Source of the DNA: Bathymodiolus brooksi
Lineage: Eukaryota > Mollusca > Bivalvia > Mytilida > Modiolidae
Direction of reading: 5' to 3'
Assembly: GCA_963680875.1 (NCBI GenBank)
Contig: OY804579.1
Coordinates: 20,631,804-20,695,803, forward strand
Length of the DNA: 64,000 nt
A program made the position numbers and the translations under genes. The number at the start of each line of letters is the position of its first letter. Position 1 is the first letter of the stretch. Positions 11,171 to 14,100 of the stretch are shown here, piece after piece. The notes beneath the pieces are model-generated. The model was not told where the DNA came from, searched no databases, and was given only the letters and a program-made list of their open reading frames with translations.

Positions 11171-14100
11171 TGCCCTTGTTAAAGTCAGTTAAAAAGTTTT
11201 AATTATGTTATACCACAAAAAAATAAATAGACAAAGCTATATCTATTAAGACGATTCATGGTGCTTAAGAAAAATGCAGTAAACTTAAGAACAAGCTTTA
11301 ACTAAGAACATTAAATAGAAATCATCTAAACATTGTGAAATCTGATGACTTAAATATCTATAATTAATACATCTTCTCTTCTATCTGGATGACCTCTTTA
11401 ATATCTTGTGACAGGTCGGTGGCTTTCTCTGGTTTCCTCCACCGAAAAAACTGACTGCCACGATAGAACTGAAATATTGTTGAAAGTGGCATTAAACACC
11501 AAAAACTCTAAACCCATCTTTGATGTCTGCATTTATTGTACAATTAATGGACTGAAAAAAGTTTATCAACAAATATTCTTTTGTGCAAAAATATAAACTG
11601 ATCAATTCAAATATCATAAATTGCTTTACCGTAAGCTGCTATTATTTTTCTGAGAATGTTGAACTACGGGTTATAATAATAAGAAGAGGTTCATCGCAAT
11701 TGAAAATGTTCAAATTTGAAATGTTGTCCTTTGAAAAAGAATGTATAAAATTTATTGAATGCAGAGTAAACTTTATTCTCAGATACACTGGGCAACATCT
11801 TACTATTTGGGAACTGAAGAACATGGGATCATCATCAGATAAACAGACTTAAAGATTACAGGAAATCCGAAATGTGTGGAATAATACACCAGGTATTTTT
11901 CTGATTGATTTACAAACATCTATTGGCAGTTTATTTAGTGCAAGATATTGTAAAGCTATGCTTGGTACAGTAACAGTAATAGTTGAAATCTGATTGTATT
12001 GCAAAAAAAATGGAGCTCTCCAGTTTAATAAGGTAAAAAAGGTATATGACTAGAATAAAATCCCCTTTTTTTTTCATTATTTTTCAACCCGGTAACATTG
12101 TCATTAATTACATTTTTTGTACATGTATATGTACACGTTACAAACACCTCTGAATGACCATGATCCCTTGAACACAGACACCAACAAGAGATGCAAAAAT
12201 CCAATACCAGTATTCTATTACCCAGACTACTTGAGATAATGGACAAGTGATAAAACAGTCATTAATAATAAATAAATGACACTCTGGGGTACTAAATATC
12301 AATAAAAAATTTACAATGATTGCAATAGATGGTTATTTTGGGAAGTCTATAAATTGTATTATTAATGTAAAATCTATTAAAAAAAAAAAAAAAAAAAAGA
12401 AAAAAAAGTTCCTTTAATATTTGGATGCCACACATTTTTTCAGATCTCCAAATAATTAAACTAGAGGCTCAGTGGGCTGATACAGAACCTTCCATACATG
12501 TAGATGCCTCCTACCAAGTTTCGGTTCATATGGCTAAGATTTTTTAGAAATTGACCAATCAGAAAAAAGAATTGCATGTGGTGGCCATCTTTGCTAACCG
12601 ACTGGGATGAAATGAGCAATCTTCATAGAGGACATTCCATAGATGATTCCTACCAAGTTTCGGTGGTAGCCATGTTTGTTAACCGATCGGGACAAAATGA
12701 GCAATCTTCATAGAGGACATTCCATAGATGCTTCCTACCAAGTTTTGGTTCATTTGGCCAAGTGGTTTCAGAGGAGAAGATTTTTTTAAATCGGCCCATC
12801 AGAAACAAGAATTGCCTGTGGTGGCCATGTTTGGTAATGGATCATAACAAAATGTGCACTCTTTAGAGAGGACCTTCCATAGATGCTTCCTACCAAATTT
12901 CAGTTCATTTGGCTGAGGGTTTTCAGAGGAGAAGATTAAAATGTGAAAAGTAAACGGATGACAGACGACGGACACCGAGTGATGGCAAAAGCTCATATTG
13001 CTTTTGGCAAGGTTTGCTAAAAAGAATATTAAAATGTGAATACCTACTTGTAATGTATAGAATAAACATGTTACACTATATCAGCATTAGTTAATTTCTA
13101 AGGGAGATAATTGCAAGAGTTATCTTTCTTTTTGGCAAGGTGAGCTAACAAAAAGTTTTTACCAATTATTTAGCATGATTGTACTATTATTCTAAAACAG
13201 AATATTATCCTTACATTATTTCCGCGCAAGACGGCTAAATGGAAAGAGAGAAGCTGCATAGGGACGACTGTTAATAACCCTTGTAGGCAGTCCACGGTGT
13301 TGGGAACTTCAATATACCGATAAGCTTGCTGCTGCATGTCCACATCACCCTTAGAACATAGTAAAATGGGACGACCCTAAAATATACAATACAATCTAGC
13401 CTAATAATAGTGCTTAAATAGAGCAAGAATTCTGACACACCCACCAAAGAAATCTGATAGACCATCATGCATATATTAATTTGCATGTTCAAACTTTTGA
13501 AGACCATATTTTTCCTTGATAATAAAAGTCAGCCAAGTCAATTTAATTATCAAATTCAATTCTTTATCCTTCATAAAAGTACTTTCCTTTCCAAAAAAGG
13601 TTACTTTGCTTTGACCTATCCAAAAAGGTTACTTTGTTTTGACCTATCCAAAAAGGTTACTTTGTTTTGAACTATCCAAAAAGGTTACTTTGCTTTGAAC
13701 TATCCAAAAAGGTTACTTTGCTTTGAACTATCCAAAAAGGTTACTTTGCTTTGAACTATCCAAAAAGGTTACTTTGCTTTGAACTTCCAATTAATATAAT
13801 AACCGTCTATCAGTTCCCTTTATTGTGTGCTCTGCTTTATGTCAGTGTAGGTTATATATTAAGAGAAGCTAAGCATGCACAAACACATGAGCTCTACGTG
13901 AAATATATAATGCTTACATCCAGATTTTTTAACTTAGCGATATGTAACGACAGAAGCTGCATAGGAATGATGCAGAGGATTCCCTGCAAACAATCGATTG
14001 TGTGTGGTACGCTTATAGACGTTTTCCCCATCGCTTGTGTTTCAACATCCTCCTTGTTATTAATGAGGATTGGTTCACCCTACAATGTCAAAGTGTAAGG

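Follow-up and report, generated by a model that had tools for sequence, protein, structure and literature searches.

Among the described systems, exons 6a and 6e of coq-2 (PMC7434440) appear to be the nearest analogue, in the same phyla, of the exon pair analyzed here in the gene for glutamine:fructose-6-phosphate amidotransferase (GFAT). In the passages cited from that work, the coq-2 pair likewise combines one ordinary-animal and one derived exon of a single enzyme in annelids and molluscs, and the swap remodels the enzyme. It differs from the GFAT pair in serving quinone synthesis, in occurring also in helminths including C. elegans and in having a function shown by exon deletions. Exons 4a and 4b of OGDH, as described in the cited part of PMC7969005, are also mutually exclusive and tune a metabolic enzyme; unlike the GFAT pair, they set Ca2+ sensitivity and their exclusion is enforced by distant branch points.

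In vertebrates the GFAT gene itself is alternatively spliced, and GFPT1 exon 9 (GFAT1-L; PMC10514471) occupies about the same position as two micro-exons found in our sequence. According to the cited passages, however, this exon is a 54-bp cassette rather than one of a pair, and it is distant from the C-terminal end of the isomerase. The human substitutions of tandem duplicated exons covered by PMC9741552 are, as characterized in the part consulted, events of the same kind, involving homologous exons of ancient origin that differ mostly by conservative changes. The main text of that paper contains 0 occurrences of the term GFPT. In Crassostrea angulata exposed to cadmium, gfpt1 is among 13 genes named from a splicing analysis, the event type not being given in the cited passages (PMC11988029). 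We found no published description of a GFAT exon-19 pair in the open-licence PMC splicing literature; the isoforms exist as public predicted records.

The GFAT gene in the window

GFAT catalyzes the rate-limiting step of UDP-GlcNAc synthesis. The window, by which we mean the entire analyzed stretch of 64,000 nucleotides from the bivalve Bathymodiolus brooksi, contains a GFAT gene that spans 53 kb.

3388..56543, minus strand: GFAT gene, exon 2 to exon 20b (tblastn, splice sites, in-frame joining)

A tblastn search with human GFAT-1 matched coding exons along almost its whole length, and exon by exon these matches cover the complete glutaminase and double-SIS isomerase architecture. Exon ends were set from the splice sites, and one further exon was picked up in the reading-frame listing. 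Exon 1 was not located in the window, and the first seven coding bases (ATGTGTG, encoding MC with the catalytic Cys2 expected of a GFAT) are an assumed start. Once joined, the exons encode 678 residues free of stops; the flanking gene is intact. Among the proteins retrieved in the searches described below, the body of the sequence is nearest to P0003 (599 of 610 aligned residues), followed by P0004 and Mytilus, which by itself would probably point to a mytilid mussel. The AF2 model of P0003 matches the isomerase domain of 2v4m with a TM score of 0.97. Separately, a short relic that looks like the end of exon 15 (11 residues) lies at 22556-22588 on the minus strand, about 300 nt downstream of exon 15.

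Two versions of exon 19

The original prediction placed two interchangeable versions of exon 19 in this gene, each 162 nt long, in phase 0-0 and sharing about 27 of 54 residues. This description holds on the minus strand, where 19a lies upstream of 19b in the order of transcription.

16683..16721, minus strand: preceding constitutive exon (exon 18 of the original prediction), 39 nt, phase 0-0 (splice sites, joining)
13918..14079, minus strand: exon 19a, derived class, 54 residues (54/54 identical in P0003)
13377..13917, minus strand: intron between 19a and 19b, 541 nt
13594..13790: 28-bp tandem repeat within this intron, 7.1 copies, 97% match
13215..13376, minus strand: exon 19b, ordinary animal class, 54 residues (same class in the Mytilus edulis predicted isoform P0124)

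The two adjacent homologous exons have 27 of 54 residues in common, 12 of them encoded before the midpoint of the exon and 15 after it. Both are preceded by AG and followed by the predicted GTAAGN type of donor (GTAAGC after 19a, GTAAGG after 19b), whereas calling the acceptors good was an overstatement. When pyrimidines were counted in the 17 nt ahead of 20 acceptors, 19b (10) belonged to the bottom three and 19a (11) to the bottom six. The frame to the next exon, 20a, is open with 19a alone, 19b alone, both or neither, which bears out the claim that either version joins exon 20 in frame. Searched singly, the two exons align to one and the same segment of human GFAT-1, the top PDB match of each (best E 4.3e-16 for 19b and 8.2e-14 for 19a). 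Exon 19 corresponds to human GFAT-1 residues 614-667, after subtraction of a six-residue internal tag of the crystal construct.

At the nucleotide level the exons agree at 83 of 162 bases (30 of 54 first, 38 of 54 second and 15 of 54 third codon positions), identity at third positions being near background. When 19a was shuffled within codon positions (2000 draws), it shared on average 3.2 and at most 10 residues with 19b, compared with the 27 observed. Synonymous differences are saturated (pS 0.84), while dN is 0.54, and there is neither a stop nor a frameshift, which argues for an old duplication under purifying selection. The comparison of dN and dS had been proposed together with the prediction of an old, retained duplication, and both it and the presence of the 19a class in relatives agree with that prediction.

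Distribution of the two exon classes

Relatives were collected by three protein searches of about 5.8 billion proteins in a database that merges sequences more than 90% identical, each search being scored on the exon 19-20 stretch. The best 120 of 4768, 7463 and 6849 matches, respectively, amounted to 317 different proteins. Classes were called from a motif in the last 12 residues of exon 19: 64 of the listed proteins belong to 19a and 246 to 19b, four (two fish among them) fit neither motif and three have an unusual end.

All 41 of the 64 19a-class proteins that carry an organism name (counted by eye) come from molluscs, annelids or brachiopods. Their sources are bivalves and gastropods, the chiton Liolophura, the annelid Dimorphilus and the brachiopod Lingula. 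In the body tree, built from the remainder of the protein, five more cluster with annelids. No vertebrate, arthropod or cnidarian representative of 19a occurs among the matches listed (317 proteins). Exon 19b is the ordinary animal version and 19a a derived class.

Apart from the 41 named proteins, 21 of the remaining 23 are near-complete (628-701 residues), their contigs measuring 2,120-5,064 bases; two shorter ones, of 397 and 482 residues, come from contigs of about 1.6 kb. P0003, with 693 residues on a contig of 5064 bases, carries all 54 residues of the window's 19a. Since the gene in the window spans tens of kilobases, contigs of 2-5 kb with near-complete 19a-class proteins are presumably spliced transcripts.

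The body tree also joins P0185 of Biomphalaria glabrata with P0006 and P0007 of Elysia in one group, apart from the GFAT of Aplysia, Bradybaena, Physella and another Biomphalaria sequence. These snails may thus have two GFAT genes. Biomphalaria P0024 and P0185, considered as a possible isoform pair, were dropped; their bodies are identical at 500 of 610 residues and they are probably products of different genes.

Probable alternative use of the two exons

Isoforms of one gene that differ in exon 19 were found in three of the 18 isoform sets compared. Haliotis cracherodii X3 and X4 are identical at all 620 other residues and at 36 of 54 in exon 19, and C. angulata X1 and X2 at 638 of 638 and 32 of 54. 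Lingula X3 and X8 are identical at all 615 other aligned residues and at 34 of 54 in exon 19, with one 27-residue insert elsewhere. All three sets are among the eight from molluscs and brachiopods; a single version of exon 19 is seen in each of the ten control sets (eight arthropod and two amphibian, comprising insects, a mite, a horseshoe crab and frogs). No shrimp is among these arthropods, and it is for shrimp GFPT2 under heat stress that an event typed as MXE has been reported, the exons being left unnamed in the cited passages of PMC10379218.

Five mollusc sets have a single version, 19a in Mercenaria, Ruditapes, Mya and Magallana gigas and 19b in Mytilus edulis. The other form in these sets may have been merged, may be unlisted (loss of data) or may really be missing. 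The M. edulis 19b record and a 19a record of Mytilus galloprovincialis are identical at 625 of 627 other residues. As to the nature of these sequences, the lophotrochozoan 19b forms are predicted records, in the isoform pairs of the same genes as 19a, and the transcript-sized contigs that we could assign are those of 19a.

Both exons occur together in four of the 317 proteins, all of them gene models (Elysia chlorotica, E. crispata, Pinctada and the annelid Ridgeia), and each of these models places 19a ahead of 19b, as in the window. The Elysia 19a copies have a long altered stretch ahead of the core. Proteins with two copies rank near the top of the search lists (4 and 5; 1 and 2; 2 to 5), and none of the 317 retrieved is a transcript-sized protein with both exons; scored on the exon 19-20 stretch, the searches are blind to proteins lacking both exons. 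The search for the pair in other mollusc GFAT genes, one of the checks suggested with the original prediction, thus yielded same-gene isoforms in Haliotis and C. angulata as well as the Pinctada and Elysia models.

Probable mutually exclusive splicing and its alternatives

We consider it highly probable that exon 19 was duplicated in tandem early in lophotrochozoans and that each mRNA takes either 19a or 19b. An early ancestor of molluscs, annelids and brachiopods would have duplicated the exon, 19b would have kept the ancestral animal sequence, 19a would be the derived copy, and every GFAT mRNA would pick one of the two. That the two exons are spliced in a mutually exclusive manner is very likely: the original claim of probable exclusivity gains support from relatives through the three isoform pairs, the transcript-sized 19a contigs and the lack of transcript-sized double copies among the 317 proteins. 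For B. brooksi itself, we infer exclusive splicing from the gene sequence together with these relatives.

Two possible means of exclusion would not operate here. Nonsense-mediated decay as the enforcer is ruled out by all four exon combinations being in frame, and steric exclusion by the 541-nt intron. In addition, an AG sits about 19 nt ahead of the 19b acceptor AG, and therefore a distant branch point of the OGDH type is not apparent. Some observations favour a different reading, in which both exons are functional yet not exclusive, 19a (or 19b) being an optional cassette and double-copy transcripts being made as well: both, either or neither stay in frame, the intron poses no steric bar, and four gene models do contain both copies. 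However, the remaining 313 of the 317 proteins, including the 21 near-complete transcript-sized ones of the 19a class, have one copy each even though double copies rank high in the searches. A second copy of the last helix would also probably disrupt the isomerase fold. We regard an optional cassette as improbable.

Considerably less probable still is that 19a survives in this animal merely by chance, as a duplicate that is dead or hardly ever used. The poor pyrimidine tracts ahead of both exons would fit such a duplicate; dN far below saturated dS, the complete identity of 19a with a transcript-sized relative and the occurrence of its class in three phyla all speak against it. Finally, one assembly is the source of the pair, so that the two copies might be suspected to be an assembly or haplotype artefact. 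With 79 of 162 bases differing, the matching bases are far too few for alleles, and the same pair is present in other species; an artefact is therefore practically ruled out. Mutually exclusive splicing of an old exon pair thus remains our preferred explanation.

Origin of the exon pair

More than half a billion years have passed since the lineages of molluscs, annelids and brachiopods separated. We built a tree from the 54 columns of exon 19 using 69 sequences (39 of 19a and 30 of 19b), hand-chosen from the 317 proteins and the window so that each species had one or few. P0317, unclassified by motif, was placed among the 19b rows, and the Elysia 19a copies, which do not provide a clean 54 residues, stayed outside the tree. 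All 39 19a rows fall on one side of a single branch (support 85/89). This branch is present in 86% of 200 bootstrap trees, the bootstrap being unsettled and accompanied by a program warning about few columns. Forcing the 28 mollusc rows of both classes together was rejected (p-AU 0.0002, 54 columns), whereas forcing the Lingula pair together was not (p-AU 0.214).

Since residues among the last 12 had served to name the classes, the tree was repeated without these columns. In the shortened alignment 19a requires five changes, the data neither favour nor reject a single 19a clade (p-AU 0.127), and grouping both mollusc classes together is borderline (p-AU 0.051).

A single origin before the three phyla split is probably the better reading of these data, with moderate support from the tree. 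An origin within molluscs only is too narrow given Lingula and Ridgeia. The other possibility is that molluscs, annelids and brachiopods duplicated the exon independently and their 19a copies converged. For mrp-1, the part of PMC7434440 consulted cites an exon pair that originated independently more than once, the best tree without the last 12 columns splits the 19a class, and the Lingula pair is not rejected as a unit. On the other hand, with all 54 columns the 19a sequences share one side of a branch and a separate mollusc origin is rejected; the a-then-b order is common to the window, Pinctada, Elysia and Ridgeia; and human position 615, which lies outside the class definition, differs strongly, if not cleanly, between the classes. 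Repeated duplication, which would itself be compatible with mutually exclusive splicing, seems to us rather unlikely, although it deserves more weight than the alternatives considered in the previous section.

Predicted structural consequences of the exon swap

The classes (39 versus 30 sequences) diverge most at human positions 615, 658, 662 and 665. Position 615 is Arg (23), Gln (4) or Lys (3) in 19b and Asn (15), Glu (12), Asp (7), Gln (4) or Lys (1) in 19a. Position 658 is Phe or Tyr in 30 of 30 19b sequences and Leu or Met in all 39 of 19a; position 662 is Val in 28 of 30 and Glu, Gln, Thr or Lys in 39 of 39. At 658 and 662 the way the classes were defined accounts for part of this separation. 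Gly occupies position 665 in all 30 19b sequences, compared with Lys or Asn in 33 and Gly in four of the 39 19a sequences. Positions 658, 662 and 665 are spaced i, i+4 and i+7; in the model of P0003 the first two are within the end of the last helix and the third is two residues beyond it. Across the models, 665 sits at the helix end or immediately past it.

AF2 models of P0003 (19a) and P0124 (19b) are of moderate quality (pTM 0.63 and 0.65). The exon block of P0003 has pLDDT values of 84-93, with the last helix at 654-675 and a low-confidence tail; P0124 shows the same elements (pLDDT 81-91) and a poor stretch upstream, at 566-588. Over the whole chain, P0003 superimposes poorly on human GFAT-1 (TM 0.54, rmsd about 18), the isomerase domain alone doing so well. 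As modeled, both exons encode the same piece of the isomerase domain, namely a strand, a short helix, a strand and the last helix, which would end directly ahead of the mobile C-tail bearing the catalytic Lys676 and Thr679 (human numbering).

According to the cited passages, the human C-tail (670-681) covers the sugar site and touches the glutaminase domain, Lys676 and Thr679 being catalytically relevant (PMC7000685), and the C-tail is the main mobile element between the GFAT-1 domains (PMC8041777). The UDP-GlcNAc contacts given there for human GFAT-1 are Arg343, Gly355, Thr447, Thr458, Gly461, His463 and Gln310 (PMC7000685); these and the sugar contacts are all outside 614-667. Because no ligand contact in the cited passages falls inside the exon, exon 19 is predicted to alter the mount of the C-tail rather than the active site. 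The swap would change the packing of the helix end, and hence the movement of the C-tail between the two active sites. The outcome would be altered domain coupling, that is, tuned coupling of the two half-reactions, and not altered chemistry. As to the suggestion that the swap may tune UDP-GlcNAc feedback, the published contacts cited do not support a directly altered UDP-GlcNAc site, and since they lie outside the exon, any effect on feedback could only be indirect.

A possible second choice at the C-terminus

Downstream of 19b the gene contains two C-terminal exons; the second of them had not figured in the original prediction. Farther upstream there are two optional micro-exons.

6698..6757, minus strand: exon 20a, canonical C-tail of 14 residues plus stop (coding 6757-6713; splice sites)
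3388..3438, minus strand: exon 20b, alternative C-tail VDSPRSLLKTHTTSEN plus stop, resembling 20a (14 pyrimidines in 17 nt at the acceptor)
3068..3073, minus strand: AATAAA, possible polyadenylation signal downstream of 20b (motif only)
40637..40660, minus strand: optional micro-exon, 24 nt, roughly where vertebrates have the GFAT1-L insert (residues in P0003)
39608..39628, minus strand: optional micro-exon, 21 nt, neighbouring the 24-nt one (residues in P0003)
13874..13879, minus strand: TGCATG (Rbfox-type motif), 39 nt past the donor of 19a (motif only)
13466..13471, minus strand: TGCATG, 95 nt upstream of the 19b acceptor (motif only)

Exon 20a has a donor-like CAG|GTAGGT 15 nt past its stop, which would make it 60 nt long if used as a cassette. 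It is possible that retention of 20a gives the canonical tail, with 20b as 3' UTR, and that skipping of 20a gives the tail from 20b. Lys676 and Thr679 are present in both tails, while Ala675 is replaced by Leu and Glu681 by Ser in 20b of the window (human numbering). Beyond the window, a tail of the 20b type is represented by one predicted isoform and one gene model: M. edulis X27 (P0133), in which 19b is followed by VDSPRSLLKIHSTVCS and Thr679 is Ser, and the Ridgeia model (P0226), which ends in VDQPRALLKTHTAVE.

It is conceivable, and we put it forward tentatively as a reading that may well prove wrong, that lophotrochozoan GFAT has a two-layer, splice-coded C-terminal switch yielding four enzymes and older than the split of the three phyla. 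One layer (19a or 19b) would select the last helix, and the other (20a kept or skipped) the canonical or the 20b tail. In a simulation of hGFAT2, as cited, the tryptophan that corresponds to Trp74 of GlmS is touched by Leu675 and Ala676 of the tail (PMC7948480); by our own mapping, the 20b Leu at human Ala675 would adjoin this ammonia-gate tryptophan. Ammonia channelling and the coupling to UDP-GlcNAc feedback would then vary among the four enzymes. Such a switch would have arisen before the three phyla diverged; vertebrates and arthropods, from which there is no 19a among the matches listed, would lack it.

Both micro-exons are preceded by ACTTTGTGCATG[C/T]AG, and therefore TGCATG starts 9 nt before each. 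Further sense-strand copies lie on either side of 19a, starting 132 nt ahead of it and 39 nt past it, and one starts 95 nt ahead of 19b. Within 150-nt flanks it occurs five times in 1800 nt around six alternative exons versus 0 times in 4800 nt around 16 constitutive exons; none is in the 150-nt flanks of 20a or 20b. Between 13.2 and 14.3 kb there are three antisense versus four sense copies, and the window total is 33 versus 34.3 by chance. The idea of Rbfox as a regulator around 19a and 19b, formed after seeing the sequence, is only a lead.

Implications

The age and spread of the pair exceed the account given in the original prediction, and its effect on function is inferred. The animals concerned probably make two forms of GFAT. 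If the two-layer switch is real, it would set hexosamine flux by tissue or stress, as for mucus, chitin or shell. Exons 19a and 19b would also provide natural variants of a region otherwise probed by designed mutants, such as the human C-tail lock L405R. Overall, the retention in three phyla of an exon swap affecting the helix to which the catalytic tail is anchored suggests that the GFAT step is tuned by splicing.
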